Assembly (NCBI GenBank): GCA_030018855.1 | Contig: JASEHG010000003.1 | Location: forward strand, 1-32,653 | Direction of reading: 5' to 3' | DNA: 32,653 bases | Source: Candidatus Brocadiaceae bacterium | GTDB taxonomy: Bacteria; Planctomycetota; Brocadiia; Brocadiales; Bathyanammoxibiaceae | Shown: piece after piece, positions 2,250 to 18,341 of the stretch | How the letters are laid out: each line of letters starts with the position of its first letter | How positions within the stretch are numbered: position 1 is the first letter of the stretch | Notes under the pieces: generated by a model | Seen by the model: the letters and a program-made list of their open reading frames with translations, nothing else | Database searches by the model: none | What the model was told of the DNA's origin: nothing | Program-made: the position numbers and the translations under genes

Positions 2250-2961
2250 GGCGACCCTCACCAATAGAATGGAGGTCTTAAAACACCTACAGTCCATAGA
2301 TAACAGGCTAATTGAGTTTACAAAAAAGAAGGAGACCTTACTAGCCGCCCTGGAAAAAAGGCGTGCACAGGTCCAACAAAGAAAGGAACTCCTGGCACAA
2401 AAACAAAAGGAATCAAAGGACTTCCAAAAAGAGACAGACGGCAAGGAACTGGAACACAAATGCCTGGAAGAGGAGATAAAGAAATCGAGGGGTAAACTCT
2501 TCCAGATTAAGAACAATAAAGAATACACCGCCCTCCTGTCAGAAGTGGGCAGCAAAGAGGCGGATAAGAGCGTACTGGAGGACGAAATCCTCTCCATGAT
2601 GTCCAAACTGGAAGGACTCCGTGTAGAAGAAAAAGAATTAGAGAAAGAGATTCAGGGGGAAGAAAAGGAGCTCTCGGCGTACGCTGGCTCCGTAGAGGCA
2701 GAGCTAGAGGTCCTGGGAAAAGAGACCCTGGGGCATCAGAAACAATGGAAAGAAAACGCCGATCTCCTTGATAAAGAAGCCCTTACGCAGTACCAAAGGC
2801 TTATTGAAAAAGATGGCCTTGCAGTGGTAGAAGTGCACGGTGAAGACTGTGGTGGATGCAACATGAGGCTAACCCCTCAGACGGTAAACCTCCTGCTCCG
2901 ACACCAGGAGCTGACCCTCTGCAAGAACTGCGGTAAGATTCTATACCTTCCGGAACAGTAG
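2227..2961 (+). CDS. Coiled-coil protein with C-terminal C4-type zinc ribbon (DUF164/CdsZ-like)
   Basis: Long charged coiled coil followed by [37 protein letters not shown]. The ORF overlaps the rpoD end, so the true start could be ATG at 2272. Confidence 0.85.
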
Positions 2962-3030
2962 CCAGTAACAAGTAGCTAGTAGCCATGGAAAAGACCCAAC
3001 CCCTAGCTACTGGCTACTAACTACTAGCTG
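2956..3030. repeat. Imperfect hairpin repeat, family E (AGTAGCCAGTAACAAGTAGCTAG ... CTAGCTACTGGCTACTAACTACTAG)
   Basis: The two halves are imperfect reverse complements. The repeat begins within the last codons and stop of the zinc-ribbon gene. A related inverted piece (GGTACTAACTACTGTTC) occurs at 3739-3755. Confidence 0.65.
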
Positions 3031-3087
3031 CCAGTCAACGCTGGGCAGGGGCAAGCCCTGCCCCTACCAGTTAACCGGGAAGGGGCC
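3031..3087. repeat. Left arm of a long inverted repeat flanking rnpB (continues P1 outward)
   Basis: CCAGTCAACGCTGGGCAGGGGCAAGCCCTGCCCCTACCAGTTAACCGGGAAGGGGCC is nearly the reverse complement of 3625-3680. Confidence 0.9.
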
Positions 3088-3185
3088 AGGTGGCCGCCCG
3101 TCCGTTCCGCCTCAGGCAGAGCGGACGAGAGGAAAGTCCGAGCTCCACAGGGCAAGGTGGTGGATAACGCCCACCGGGACCCCTG

Positions 3186-3270
3186 CTAGGGGTTAGGGAC
3201 TAGGGACCGGGGATTAGAAAAAGAGATTAAAGACCGCTATCCCCTACCCCCTAATCCCTCACCCCTAGTT
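3186..3270. repeat. Family A hairpin repeat inside rnpB, at the position of stem P9
   Basis: ctaggggttagggactaggg...ctaccccctaatccctcacccctag lies between the P8-like ggtggataacgcccacc and the conserved agggaaagtgccacag. Confidence 0.85.
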
Positions 3271-3316
3271 AGGGGGTCTCAGGGAAAGTGCCACAGAAAA
3301 TATACCGCCCGCCTGG

Positions 3317-3387
3317 CTAGGGGGTAGGGAGTAGGGAGTAGGGAAAAAGATTGCTACCCCCTAACCCCTACTCCCTATCCCCTAGTT
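3317..3387. repeat. Family A hairpin repeat inside rnpB, at the position of stem P12
   Basis: ctagggggtagggagtagggagtaggg aaaaagattgctac cccctaacccctactccctatcccctagtt lies between accgcccgcctgg and taggtgggtaagggtgaaa. Confidence 0.87.
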
Positions 3388-3614
3388 AGGTGGGTAAGGG
3401 TGAAAAGGCGGGGGGGCTAATTAAGGCCCCTTAATGTAAGAGCCCACCGCAGTCCTGGTGACAGGGCTGGCACGGCAAACCCCACCTGGAGAAAGGCTAA
3501 ATAGGGAGGGAAGGAAGTGGCCCGCTTCAGGCGAATAGCCGTCCCTCCGGGTAAGCCGCTAATGGAGGTAGTGGGCAACCACTACCCTAGAGTAATGGCC
3601 ACCCTAGACAGGAC

Positions 3615-3635
3615 TCGGCTTATCGGCCCCTTCCC
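3615..3635 (+). repeat. Direct repeat, copy 1 (inside the rnpB 3' end)
   Basis: TCGGCTTATCGGCCCCTTCCC, identical to 5990-6010. Confidence 0.95.
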
Positions 3636-3680
3636 GGTTAACTAGCTGGGCAGGGCTTGCCCCTGCCCAGCGTTGACTGG
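3625..3680. repeat. Right arm of the long inverted repeat flanking rnpB
   Basis: GGCCCCTTCCCGGTTAACTAGCTGGGCAGGGCTTGCCCCTGCCCAGCGTTGACTGG; see 3031-3087. Confidence 0.9.
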
Positions 3681-3808
3681 TAGCCCCTTTAGGTTGCGGC
3701 TACCTAGTAGACAACAGATAGGGGTTGATTTCTTCCTGGGTACTAACTACTGTTCTAGTGGGCAAGTGAAGGACATAAGAATTTTTACACCTGCATTGTT
3801 GCGTCCTA

Positions 3809-5989: not shown

Positions 5990-6010
5990 TCGGCTTATCG
6001 GCCCCTTCCC
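5990..6010 (+). repeat. Direct repeat, copy 2: orphan 21-nt copy of the rnpB 3' end
   Basis: TCGGCTTATCGGCCCCTTCCC, identical and in the same orientation as 3615-3635. No other rnpB conserved segment is visible nearby. Confidence 0.93.
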
Positions 6011-13305: not shown

Positions 13306-13330
13306 ATTCGTCCGCCTGAGGCAGAGCGAA
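13306..13330. repeat. Family C repeat upstream of the nucleotidyltransferase pair
   Basis: ATTCGTCCGCCTGAGGCAGAGCGAA; a second partial copy CGCCTGAGGCAG lies at 13294-13305. Confidence 0.7.
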
Positions 13331-14391: not shown

Positions 14392-15603
14392 ATGATAAAC
14401 GTAGACGAGGCCTACCGCATTATATTAGAAAATATCAGCACCCTCCCCATTCAAGAGGTCAACATCAAGGGGGCAGTGGGGTTGTGTCTGGCAGAGGATG
14501 CGGTCTCGGACATAGACATGCCTCCCTTTGACAAATCGTCTATGGACGGCTTCGCCGTCATTGCCGAGGATACCCTCTCTGCCTCGGGCCAACCAGTAGA
14601 ACTGGACGTAATAGAGGGGGTAGCGGCAGGACAGATGCCTCAGAAGAAGGTAGAGAGGGGACAGGCCACCAAGATAATGACAGGGGCGGCACTCCCCCAG
14701 GGAGCCGATGCCGTAATAAAGGTAGAGGATACCGAGCCTGCGGGACTCCGCAAGGTAAAACTCCTGCGGGGCATGAAAAAGGGGGAGAACGTAAGTCCAA
14801 GGGGAGAAGACTTTCAGGCAGGCCAGGTGGTACTCAAGAGGGTGACCGCCCTCAGACCCCAGGAGATAGGCATCCTGGCCATGATAGGGCTGGGAAAGGT
14901 AAAGGTCTATTCCTCCCCCAAGGTAGGCATCAGCTCTACGGGGGATGAACTGGTAGAGGTAGGACGTAAGCCTACTGGAGGCCAGATAAGGGACAGCAAT
15001 AGCCACTGCCTGGCGGCCCAGGTCTCCCTGACCAGGGCGGAGGTGGAATGCTTCGGCACCGCAAGAGATGACCGCAAGTCCCTCATCCACATGATAAAAA
15101 AGGGGTTGAGGAAAGACCTGCTCATCCTCACCGGGGGTGTATCCATGGGGGAGTATGACCTGGTGGTGGGCGTCCTCAAAGAACTGGGGGTCAACCTCTT
15201 CTTTGAGAAGGTGGCAATGAAGCCAGGTAAACCCATAGTCTTTGGAAAGCATTATAAGACCGCCGTCTTTGCCCTGCCAGGTAACCCGGTTGCCACGTAT
15301 GTTTCCTTTGAGCTCTTCGTCCGGCCCGCCATCCGCAAGATGATGGGCTTCACCCAGCTCAGCCGTACGATAGTGAAGGCCCAACTAGAAACCCCCTTAC
15401 GCAGTAGGGGGGAGCGGAGGGAATTCAGGCCCACCTGGCTGCGTCTAGAGGACGGGAGATTTTCTGCCTCTCCAGTGGAATGGCATGGCTCTGCTGACCT
15501 GTTGGGGACTACCAGGGCCAACTCCCTGCTAATAGTCCCGGAGGGCGTGGAGTCCTACTCGGCTGGGCAAGAGGTGGAGGTAATGCTCACGGGTGAGCTC
15601 TAA
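14392..15603 (+). CDS. moeA: Molybdopterin molybdotransferase
   Basis: DMPPFDKSSMDGFAVIAEDT, TKIMTGAALPQGADAVIKVEDTE, ISSTGDELVEVG, ILTGGVSMGEYDLV, KPGKPIVFG, ALPGNPVATYVSFELF. ATG at 14392 preferred, with ggaag upstream. Confidence 0.96.
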   Translation: MINVDEAYRIILENISTLPIQEVNIKGAVGLCLAEDAVSDIDMPPFDKSSMDGFAVIAEDTLSASGQPVELDVIEGVAAGQMPQKKVERGQATKIMTGAALPQGADAVIKVEDTEPAGLRKVKLLRGMKKGENVSPRGEDFQAGQVVLKRVTALRPQEIGILAMIGLGKVKVYSSPKVGISSTGDELVEVGRKPTGGQIRDSNSHCLAAQVSLTRAEVECFGTARDDRKSLIHMIKKGLRKDLLILTGGVSMGEYDLVVGVLKELGVNLFFEKVAMKPGKPIVFGKHYKTAVFALPGNPVATYVSFELFVRPAIRKMMGFTQLSRTIVKAQLETPLRSRGERREFRPTWLRLEDGRFSASPVEWHGSADLLGTTRANSLLIVPEGVESYSAGQEVEVMLTGEL

Positions 15604-17296
15604 ACCAGTGGGTAGGGAGTGGGGGGTAGGGATTAGCAATCTTTTCTCCTACTCCCCACTCCCTACTCCCTACTCCCTAATTCCTAACCCCTGGTCCCTA
15701 ATCTCTACTATCCCGGTTGTCCTCCCCACTGTAGTCTTGCTCGGCATGTCCTTTCCTGGGCCAGACCTGCCCCTGCTGGCCTGGGTGGCCCTGGTACCCT
15801 GGCTCCTCCTGATAGGCTCTGAGGTAGGGGCACGTTGCAACGTGCCCCTGCTCTCCTGGCTCATCGGGATAATCTTCTTTACCGTAAAGCTCTCCTGGCT
15901 GGGCTACGCCACCAATGCAGGCTGGCTCTTACTCAGCTCCTACCTCTCCATCTCCTACCTCCTTTTTGGCATTGCCTGCTCTTACCTCCACAGGAACTCC
16001 GGCCTGCCCCTTGCCCTCCTGGCCCCTTTCCTATGGGTCTCTCTGGAGTACCTCAGGGGCTTCCTCATGACGGGCTTCCCCTGGTTCTACCTCGGCCATA
16101 CCCAGTACAGCTACCTGTCCATCATCCAGATAGCCGACATTACTGGCGCCTACGGCGTCTCTTTCATCATTGTGGCGGTCAATGCCTGCTTTGCCCAGGG
16201 ACTCCTGAGGTGGTGGAACGGTAAGGGGGGACACTTCCTGTTCGCCATCGCCTTTATCTTATTACTGTTCCCTCTATCTTACGGTATGTTCCGCCTGGCG
16301 GGGTTATCCTATCAGGAAGGCCCCAGGCTCTGTATGGTACAGGGGAACATCCTCCAGGACCTAAAGATGGATCCAGACGTTGAGCAGAGGAAGAGCAACC
16401 TCCAGAGGTATCTAGACCTCTCCAGGCTTGTCCTGAGCGAAGCCGAAGGGAAGGTAAGGTCAGAAAAGGTGGATATGATAGCCTGGCCTGAGACCTCTGC
16501 CCCGGGGCTATTGAACCTGGACCCTAAGTTCTGGAGAGAGACCGACCGCTTCTCCCAGACCTCTATCTTTGAGCTGGCAAAGGAACTCCAGACCTATCTC
16601 CTGGTAGGAGGGATAGCCATAGAACCTGGGAAGGGGAATAATTTTGAGGAGAGTACCCTCTATAATAGTGCCTTCCTCTACGGGCCTGACGGTAACCTCC
16701 TGGACAGGTACGACAAACTCCACCTGGTGCCCTTCGGAGAGTACACGCCTCTTAGAGAGGTCTTCCCCTTCCTGAGACATATGGTACCCTACGAGATAGA
16801 CCTCTCCCCCGGGAGCCGTTGGGAATTACTAGAGTTTAAGGGGCGTAGGGGCGACCCGGCGGGTCGCCCTTACAGGTTTGCCACCCTCATCTGTTACGAG
16901 GACACAGTCCCACCCCTGGCCAGGTACTTCACCAGGCAGGGGGCAGACTTCCTCCTGAACATCACCAACGACGGCTGGTTCCATGACAGTCCGGAGCTGG
17001 ACCAGCACCTGGCCATCATGGTCTTCAGAGCCGTAGAGAATCGGATAGGTATGGCCAGGGCCGCCAATACGGGCATCTCCGCCTTTGTGGCCCCCAGTGG
17101 CGACATCTACTCCCTTATAACCCGGAACGGTAAGCGCCGGGAGGTGGAGGGTATCCTGGAAGGCACCATCTTAATAGCCCGTGGAGGGCCCAGTTTTTAT
17201 ACAAGGTATGGCGACCTCTTCAGCCAGTTCTGCCTGTTAGTATCCATTGGCCTGCTCCTGATGCCTACGGTAAAGAGGCTAGGGGTTAGGGAATAG
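15593..17296 (+). CDS. lnt: Apolipoprotein N-acyltransferase
   Basis: N-terminal multi-TM region plus nitrilase domain with candidate catalytic residues in WPETSAPG (Glu), YDKLHLVPFGEY (Lys) and LICYEDTVPP (Cys). GTG start overlaps the moeA stop; exact start uncertain. Confidence 0.94.
   Translation: MSSKPVGREWGVGISNLFSYSPLPTPYSLIPNPWSLISTIPVVLPTVVLLGMSFPGPDLPLLAWVALVPWLLLIGSEVGARCNVPLLSWLIGIIFFTVKLSWLGYATNAGWLLLSSYLSISYLLFGIACSYLHRNSGLPLALLAPFLWVSLEYLRGFLMTGFPWFYLGHTQYSYLSIIQIADITGAYGVSFIIVAVNACFAQGLLRWWNGKGGHFLFAIAFILLLFPLSYGMFRLAGLSYQEGPRLCMVQGNILQDLKMDPDVEQRKSNLQRYLDLSRLVLSEAEGKVRSEKVDMIAWPETSAPGLLNLDPKFWRETDRFSQTSIFELAKELQTYLLVGGIAIEPGKGNNFEESTLYNSAFLYGPDGNLLDRYDKLHLVPFGEYTPLREVFPFLRHMVPYEIDLSPGSRWELLEFKGRRGDPAGRPYRFATLICYEDTVPPLARYFTRQGADFLLNITNDGWFHDSPELDQHLAIMVFRAVENRIGMARAANTGISAFVAPSGDIYSLITRNGKRREVEGILEGTILIARGGPSFYTRYGDLFSQFCLLVSIGLLLMPTVKRLGVRE
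15605..15700. repeat. Family A hairpin repeat at the moeA/lnt junction
   Basis: ccagtgggtagggagtggggggtagggattagcaat...ctactccccactccctactccctactccctaattcctaacccctgg. Confidence 0.85.
15824..15850. repeat. Family B palindrome in frame in lnt (copy 1)
   Basis: GTAGGGGCACGTTGCAACGTGCCCCTG read GTA GGG GCA CGT TGC... (VGARCNVPL). 27 of 28 bases identical to the mqnA copy, but in another frame. Confidence 0.92.
16427..16450. repeat. Candidate dispersed repeat CTTGTCCTGAGCGAAGCCGAAGGG in frame in lnt
   Basis: Encodes LVLSEAEG. I recall this 24-mer type as a widespread repeat in other environmental bacterial genomes; only one copy is seen in this window. Confidence 0.55.
16845..16873. repeat. Family B palindrome in frame in lnt (copy 2)
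   Basis: GTAGGGGCGACCC-GGC-GGGTCGCCCTTAC read CGT AGG GGC GAC CCG GCG GGT CGC CCT TAC (RRGDPAGRPY), just before the catalytic Cys strand. Confidence 0.9.
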
Positions 17297-17378
17297 GGAG
17301 TAGGGTGTAGGGAATAGCAATATAAAATCTTGCTACTTCCTGCTCTACTCCCTACCCCCTACTCTCTGGTCCCTAGTT
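17279..17378. repeat. Family A hairpin repeat containing the lnt stop codon
   Basis: ctaggggttagggaatagggagtagggtgtagggaatagcaatataaaatcttgctacttcctgctctactccctaccccctactctctggtccctagtt. Confidence 0.85.
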
Positions 17379-17390
17379 AAGAAAAGCCCC

Positions 17391-17419: not shown

Positions 17420-17445
17420 TACCTTAAGAATATAAAAGGTGGGCG

Positions 17446-17524
17446 GCAGGGAGTAAGGGGTAGGGCGTAGGGGATAGCAGGATGAAATCTTGCTACTCCC
17501 TACCCCCTACTCCCTGACCCCTGC
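17446..17524. repeat. Family A hairpin repeat directly upstream of tRNA-Ala
   Basis: gcagggagtaaggggtagggcgtaggggatagcaggatgaaatcttgctactccctaccccctactccctgacccctgc. Confidence 0.85.
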
Positions 17525-17546
17525 AGGTCAGCCCCTCGCTTCGGGT

Positions 17547-17622
<76 letters not shown>

Positions 17623-17670
17623 ATCCTCTATGTAGGATACATTTTTAGACGCACCCTGCGTGCTATATTT

Positions 17671-17687
17671 GTAAAAAGGACTTTTAC
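17671..17687. promoter_or_regulatory. Inverted repeat covering the hicB Shine-Dalgarno region
   Basis: GTAAAA-AGGAC-TTTTAC immediately before the hicB ATG; a TATATT -10-like element lies at 17664-17669. Confidence 0.4.
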
Positions 17688-17924
17688 ATGCAAGCGTATA
17701 CTTACCAGATAGTAATAGTAAAAGAAGGCAAAAAATACTGGGCTTACATTCCAGACCTTCCTGGAGTCTATGGCTTGGGCGACACGCCTGCCAAAGCAAA
17801 AAAGGATATTATACAAGCCCTAAAACTTTATATTGAAGACATACTGGCCGAGGGAGGGCCTGTGCCTGAATCAACCGCAAAGGTAGTGGGCTTTGATTCC
17901 ATAGAAATTCCAGTAGAGGATTAA
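17688..17924 (+). CDS. hicB: HicB-family antitoxin
   Basis: QAYTYQIVIVKEGKKYWAYIPDLPGVYGLGDTPAKAKKDIIQALKLYIEDI. Confidence 0.9.
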   Translation: MQAYTYQIVIVKEGKKYWAYIPDLPGVYGLGDTPAKAKKDIIQALKLYIEDILAEGGPVPESTAKVVGFDSIEIPVED

Positions 17925-18130
17925 TGCCCACCGCAAAAGAGGTAGTAAGATTCTTAAAAAAGAAAGGGTTTATAGAGAAGAGGCAGAAAGGCTCACATCT
18001 TGTGTTAGAGAATCCAGGGACCGGTTTTCGTACAGTTGTACCTATGCATTCAGGGGATTTACCAAAAGGATTGTTCCTGAAGATATTAAAAGACGCAGGA
18101 TTTAACCTAAAGGATTATCTGGAGAAATAA
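17924..18130 (+). CDS. hicA: HicA-family mRNA interferase toxin
   Basis: TAKEVVRFLKKKGFIEKRQKGSHLVLENPGTGFRTVVPMHSGDLPKGLFLKILKDAGF, with the GSH catalytic His. Confidence 0.93.
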   Translation: MPTAKEVVRFLKKKGFIEKRQKGSHLVLENPGTGFRTVVPMHSGDLPKGLFLKILKDAGFNLKDYLEK

Positions 18131-18143
18131 GCGGCGAATTAAC

Positions 18144-18189
18144 GAATGGCATTCAAGAGGTCAGGGTTCAAATCCCCTATCCTCCACCA
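18144..18189 (+). pseudogene. Orphan 3' fragment of tRNA-Ala (direct repeat copy 2)
   Basis: GAATGGCATTCAAGAGGTCAGGGTTCAAATCCCCTATCCTCCACCA is identical to 17576-17622 except for one G missing from the T stem. No 5' half. Confidence 0.95.
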
Positions 18190-18341
18190 TATTTCTCTAA
18201 CCTTCCCTTACCCCCCTTCTCAGCACGAGGCTATCGCTGAATCCGCCTCTGGTAGACTGAGGCCCTGTCCCTGCAATCTGCACCTTTAAACGTCTCTGAG
18301 GTCTCTAAAAAAGTCTATTTTAGTTTGCACAATCCCTTCAG

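Follow-up and report, generated by a model that had tools for sequence, protein, structure and literature searches.

The window, a stretch of 32,653 nt that constitutes contig C304, comes from a metagenome-assembled genome (MAG) of an uncultured bacterium related to the anammox bacteria, in the Planctomycetota, order Brocadiales (G000; 2.18 Mb in 370 contigs, 93% complete). It contains rnpB, the gene of the bacterial RNase P RNA, a tRNA-cutting ribozyme. Upstream of rnpB are found a sigma-70 gene (603-2249) and then a CT398-like zinc-ribbon gene (2227-2961). The upstream neighbour of rnpB is the same in G001 and G002, which belong to the same genus as G000, and in G006, which represents another genus of the same family. 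Two stems of the G000 rnpB, P9 and P12, end in long hairpins that resemble a dispersed non-coding hairpin repeat of the genome, here called family A (Table 1). It is very probable that one copy of this repeat has invaded each of the two stem tips.

The covariance model RF00010 aligns to the gene over its whole length, with a score of 255.8 bits against a gathering score of 100. The conserved core is matched in this alignment, and L8, L14 (GUGA), and L18 (GCAA) are intact. The gene has the look of a functional class A RNase P RNA, and, as the original prediction had it, its conserved core is intact. The stem assignments, then made by eye, were also correct; the alignment puts extra sequence in P3, P9, and P12. 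RF00010 has one match in G000, and no second intact rnpB was found in the 93% complete assembly. By stem, the excess over the model is 9 nt in P3, 97 nt in P9 (versus 4 in the model), 67 nt in P12, 29 (versus 6) in P13, and 13 nt in P16/17. Among 100 sampled genomes, full-length rnpB is ~310-490 nt long, with the exceptions of G000 (561), G006 (604), and G011 (611), the last from another family of the order. On such insert-bearing genes covariance searches lose score, and length filters for rnpB are affected as well.

Table 1. Features in and around rnpB and family A copies in the window.
Feature	Position	Strand	Evidence
rnpB, bacterial RNase P RNA class A	3078..3638	+	RF00010 full model 1-367, 255.8 bits, E 1.7e-82; 561 nt
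P3 apex, one-mismatch copy of palindrome family C (TCCGCCTNAGGCGGA)	3104..3126	+	exact CCGCCTCAGGCGG core in P3 of G001 and G002
Family A heptamer-armed hairpin at P9 tip (TGCTAGGGG...CCCCTAGTTA), replaces L9	3184..3271	+	R2 56.3 bits; empty site in G001, G002, G006
Family A heptamer-armed hairpin at P12 tip (GGCTAGGGGG...CCCCTAGTTA)	3315..3388	+	R2 78.6 bits; empty site in G001, G002; fold -71.0 kcal/mol, 35 bp
5' flank palindrome, complementary to 3648-3684, extends P1 outward	3027..3063	+	97% inverted repeat; absent upstream of rnpB in G001, G002, G006
3' flank palindrome GGGCAGGGCTTGCCCCTGCCC, common to G001 and G002	3648..3684	+	inverted repeat and alignment of relatives
Family A copy between moeA and lnt	15598..15693	.	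R2 70.2 bits (+ strand), 78.1 bits (- strand); orthologous copy in G002 (same flank, L168)
Family A copy, 3' end of lnt	17279..17382	+	R2 80.0 bits, R1 94.4 bits; copy in both training sets
Family A copy upstream of tRNA-Ala	17439..17530	+	R2 70.6 bits
Family A-like copy in degraded form, directly upstream of rnpB	2956..3034	-	R1 31.0 bits; no R2 match

Family A is a non-coding unit of ~70-105 nt. Its arms consist of GTAGGGA-type heptamers, (GTAGGGA)n, with a period of 7 (autocorrelation up to 0.83), its loop core is AGATTGCTA or TAGCAAGATTTTATCCTGCTA, and its termini are CTAGGGG...CCCCTAG. It occupies at least ~65 places in G000 and at least ~40-55 in each of G001, G002, and G006; all genome-wide repeat counts given here are lower bounds. 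Because palindromes match on both strands, the number of matches is about twice the number of places. A first model built from family A copies, with the 17279 copy in its training set (R1), has at least 130 matches on both strands in G000, 101 in G001, 112 in G002, 87 in G006, and 24 in G009, and few elsewhere. A strict family A pattern, counting overlapping matches, is found 64 times in G000, 13 in G001, 25 in G002, and 8 in G006, while it is found in none of 24 other genomes and not in the reversed control.

To avoid circularity, a second covariance model (R2) was trained on 31 family A copies that all lie outside rnpB. R2 matches both inserts, P9 with 56.3 bits (E ~8e-15) and P12 with 78.6 bits (E ~1e-21). 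The homology of the dispersed copies to the inserts is therefore supported by an alignment that had left the inserts out. In the rnpB genes of the relatives searched other than G006, R2 has no match, save a weak one in the upstream flank of G002. Local alignment to copies outside rnpB gives a score of 55 for the P9 insert (maximum 33 in 300 dinucleotide shuffles) and 104 for the P12 insert (maximum 37 in 300). Both inserts fold to near-perfect hairpins of 36 (P9) and 35 bp (P12), with -60 to -71 kcal/mol. The copies that the original prediction had listed at 15605, 17279, and 17446 are true family members, being matched by R1 and R2. Native GC-rich stems might also have grown in place by replication slippage of heptamers, with a superficial likeness to the intergenic repeats. 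Simple heptamer-tandem arms are able to grow, and the heptamer number does differ between orthologous family A copies elsewhere. In P12, however, the loop and the termini also match outside copies (AAAAAGATTGCTA; CTAGGGG...CCCCTAGTTA), the alignment scores are far above those of shuffles, and an asymmetric 3' end, CTAGTTA, is common to the P9, P12, and 17279 copies. Growth by slippage is very unlikely.

Comparison with the congeners reveals empty sites. In G001 and G002, P9 is short (CCCC-GUAACA-GGGG; the loop in G006 is GUAAU), and so is P12, which reads CCGCC-UC-GGCGG in G001 and UCCGCCUCAGGCGGA in G002, with UCA at the insert site. The surroundings of these sites are 93-98% identical. G000 thus carries both inserts at orthologous sites where G001 and G002 carry neither, and since their stems are short there, long P9 and P12 stems are not a genus-wide trait. 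By this comparison the inserts measure ~88 nt (P9) and ~74 nt (P12), with approximate boundaries, close to the 85 and 71 nt proposed before. No target-site duplication is evident at P9 or P12 in the comparison with the congeners; the inserts replace loop bases. Between the P8 loop and P10, 77 of ~82 usable genes have exactly 21 nt; G001, G002, and G006 have 31-32 there, and G000 has 114. P12 is 13-41 nt long in most genes, and 88 in G000, 91 in G006, and 208 in G011 (the value 604 in this list is a mis-parse of L012). It is extremely unlikely that the repeats were misjoined into rnpB during metagenome assembly. Dispersed repeats are typical points of misassembly, and there are 370 contigs; but typical short reads exceed the elements in length, rnpB runs on without a break to both sides and is syntenic with G001, two stems are affected with base-paired continuity, and like events occur in the independent genomes G006 and G011.

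The P9 insertion is the clearest recent event, because it is absent from both congeners and from G006. It has removed the tetraloop of L9. In 79 of 84 genes, L9 forms a GNRA tetraloop closed by a stem of 4 bp or more; G000, G001, G002, G006, and G078 do not follow this rule. Such a loop is common but not universal among class A RNAs, and its loss does not exclude membership. The suggested order of events is that P9 was lengthened and the GNRA closing pair lost in the common ancestor of the G000 and G006 genera, before the repeat landed. The GNRA L9 that serves the L9-P1 contact is lost in G000. This contact matters for the interdomain assembly of engineered ribozymes (PMC6783828) and is stronger in thermophiles (PMC4227106).

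The history of P12 is less simple. G006 also has a family A hairpin at its P12 tip (43.2 bits with R2), so that the P12 insertion either happened recently on the lineage of G000 or is ancestral and was followed by losses. If the hairpin was ancestral to both genera and lost in G001 and G002, the P9 insertion alone would be new. The position shared with G006 speaks for this possibility, which we regard as less likely than not. It requires two losses, or one on a branch common to G001 and G002, whose P12 stems now hold a family C palindrome (G002) and a minimal loop (G001). The bases adjacent to the insert also differ, CGCC|TGGCTAG in G000 and CGTG|AACTAG in G006, as do the loop and the arm length of the two hairpins. 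P12 is a recurrent insertion site, taken by family A also in G006 and by an unrelated dispersed element bounded by terminal inverted repeats (TIRs) in G011. The G011 insert is 207 nt long and has ~40 other genomic copies, most with 73-90% identity. Its inverted termini, TTAGGAGCTGTC...GACAGCTCCTAA, lie near the ends of the better-matching copies. In G014, from the sister genus of G011, P12 is short. The long P12 stems of G005 (same family as G000), G046, and G092 were considered as further repeat insertions and rejected, as they have no other substantial genomic copies. P12 is described in PMC2858038 as sometimes dispensable, e.g., in cyanobacteria.

P3 carries a different palindrome. Exact copies of family C (TCCGCCTNAGGCGGA) number 308 in G000, 5-227 in the rest of the family, and 93 in G009, against an expectation of 0.006 from composition. 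The P3 tip (3107-3120, CCGCCTCAGGCAGA) does resemble the copy at 13312, as had been noticed before; the idea that it is a recent insertion fails, as the feature is genus-wide. Being common to the genus, the P3 palindrome, a degraded copy in G000, is older, and P3 probably took up family C before the genus diversified. The family C palindrome in P12 of G002 resembles the native sequence of that stem, and is therefore more likely to be a chance match than the one in P3. Other dispersed palindromes are found in P17 of G006 and before P18 of G002, and extra sequence in P14 of G006 is only weakly repeated.

Other structural RNAs were searched for inserts. The tmRNA has none (356 nt in G000, ~350-357 nt in relatives where found), and there is no repeat insert in the 23S rRNA of G003 or G006; a search of the G000 assembly did not find its 23S rRNA. 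The 23S rRNA was rejected as a second target: the insertion in G002 (L231, G002:C14) is of an ordinary intron type, with a LAGLIDADG-like open reading frame (ORF) of 139 aa, judged by eye.

How could such insertions be tolerated? A near-perfect palindrome that lands in a hairpin loop would merely lengthen the stem, so the ribozyme core would still fold and the insertion would be nearly neutral. P9 would already have been loosened in the common ancestor with the G006 genus, and P12 would be a dispensable variable stem. The repeats most likely spread as non-autonomous units like miniature inverted-repeat transposable elements (MITEs) or repetitive extragenic palindromes (REPs), or by copying between repeat copies. 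The earlier claim that mobile palindromes are tolerated at stem tips is supported by homology and empty sites; the word mobile derives from dispersal and from presence and absence.

Several points weigh against invasion by a moving repeat. The combination of P9 and P12 inserts is carried by one MAG only. Flanks were tested for 14 intergenic copies, and most of those with both flanks found in G001 or G002 show an element-sized gap at the orthologous place. Most of these copies are therefore old and vertically inherited, and recent mobility outside rnpB is not demonstrated. The single polymorphic site that came up among the candidates for clean empty sites, L139, is a complex rearrangement in which the target is duplicated and another palindrome is present, and it defines no unit. 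No transposase tracking family A was found by counts of PF01797 (Y1_Tnp); G000, G001, and G006 have few Y1/RAYT (REP-associated tyrosine transposase) domains, and weak ones. Y1/RAYT proteins were rejected as the movers, with 3, 1, 3, and 1 Y1_Tnp domains in the carriers G000, G001, G002, and G006 versus 9-27 in G005, G011, G012, and G019, genomes in which family A is rare or absent. Finally, expression of the gene and retention of the hairpins in mature RNA are presumed from the DNA sequence.

This last point also counts against an adaptive origin, in which the inserts would serve RNA processing or regulation, as substrates of RNase III or as binding sites of a protein, and the RNase P RNA might then consist of two or three pieces. 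Stems of ~35 bp with -60 to -71 kcal/mol would suit such a role, and there is an analogy with 23S rRNA intervening sequences, hairpins that are inserted at the tips of stems in a structural RNA and excised by RNase III. In addition, the two flanks of rnpB pair as a 37-bp inverted repeat, and its 5' half occurs in this species only. Yet the inserts are unconserved and the congeners do without them, and adaptation seems rather unlikely. Under invasion by the repeat, too, the ~35-bp stems are plausible RNase III substrates, so that trimming or nicking at the inserts may occur in the mature RNA. A further-reaching proposal would be that the P12 tip in Brocadiales, and P9 once L9 had relaxed, is a standing landing pad for dispersed hairpins and MITEs, that RNase III cuts the stems, and that the species relies on an RNase P RNA in fragments, one that lacks the L9-P1 contact. 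We consider it quite unlikely that all of this holds.

Some other arrangements were observed near rnpB and the repeats. The 37-nt flank inverted repeat (3027-3063/3648-3684), with its species-specific 5' half, would make P1 very long. The 3' end of rnpB (3615-3635) has an exact 21-nt copy 2.4 kb downstream (5990-6010). Genes for a TumE toxin and HVO_A0114 are found between the two. This interval is missing from G001, and in G002 a copy of the rnpB 3' end lies 1.2 kb downstream. The interval looks like a small cassette, parallel to the case of tRNA-Ala(GGC). There, a hicB-like/hicA pair (17688-17924, 17924-18130) follows the tRNA gene, and after the pair the 3' half of the tRNA is repeated over ~46 nt, so that 17547-18190 can be read as a toxin-antitoxin cassette between tRNA 3'-end repeats. 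The lnt-like ORF ends within a family A hairpin (17276-17296), and thus the repeat provides its stop codon. At L148 and L173, the G000 and G002 copies share orthologous place and flanks and differ in loop core, which suggests gene conversion between dispersed copies. Nested repeats, with a GCAGGCTAAAGCCTGC palindrome within the loop of a heptamer hairpin, exist at L176 (G001:C52), L175 (G002:C8), and L139 (G000:C1), the last with a ~40-nt target duplication beside the nested palindrome.

Together these genomes map where nature has placed insertions in an essential ribozyme: there are congeners with empty sites, one species in which two stems have each received a copy of one repeat, and an unrelated P12 element that arrived independently in another family. 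With this map it can be tested which stems accept insertions and in which sequence (P9 relaxed before insertion), whether the L9-P1 contact is dispensable, and whether bacterial RNase P RNA can work in pieces. It also illustrates the ease with which repeats can enter the stem tips of an ancient ribozyme.

Similar cases have been described. Insertions like those in G000 have their likeness in 23S rRNA intervening sequences, which are also stem-tip hairpins; the G000 inserts lie in rnpB and are known at the DNA level. The repeat unit of the cyanobacterial STRR sequences is a heptamer. STRR repeats occur in rnpB of heterocyst-forming cyanobacteria (Vioque 1997, as titled in PMC4046671 and PMC2858038). 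Like the period-7 arms of family A, they are heptanucleotide tandem units dispersed in the genome and present in rnpB, whereas family A joins two complementary heptamer arms and a loop in one hairpin unit; the comparison is by description, not sequence. Rickettsia palindromic elements (RPE) sit in the genes of M1 RNA and tmRNA (Ogata et al. 2002, as cited in PMC2229807). They share with family A that they are dispersed palindromic repeats of ~100 nt also found within the RNase P RNA gene. The G000 repeats differ from this cited account in phylum, in their heptamer-tandem arms, and in having two copies per ribozyme and more than one family per gene, although they too are set apart by description rather than sequence. 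RPE are also found in tmRNA, while the G000 tmRNA is free of inserts. Bacterial MITEs and small mobile repeats (RUP, Correia, ERIC) are reviewed in PMC2229807. Family A resembles them in being short and non-coding, with terminal inverted repeats and multiple dispersed copies with shared termini; it differs in that neither a target-site duplication (at P9 and P12) nor a partner transposase (by Y1_Tnp counts) is evident, and the P12 element of G011 is more MITE-like. REP/GTAG palindromes with RAYT transposases are, in the account of PMC3733652, abundant, known from Planctomycetes, and sometimes found within genes. Family A is longer, shows no GTAG end tag, and its counts do not follow Y1_Tnp. 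Repeats in rnpB are thus of a kind already known, established by RPE in Rickettsia M1 RNA and STRR in cyanobacterial rnpB as described in those sources. New, as far as the literature was searched, are a single ribozyme with one family represented in two of its stems and empty sites in congeners, the presence of further palindrome families in its other stems or those of relatives, and the reuse of P12 by different families.
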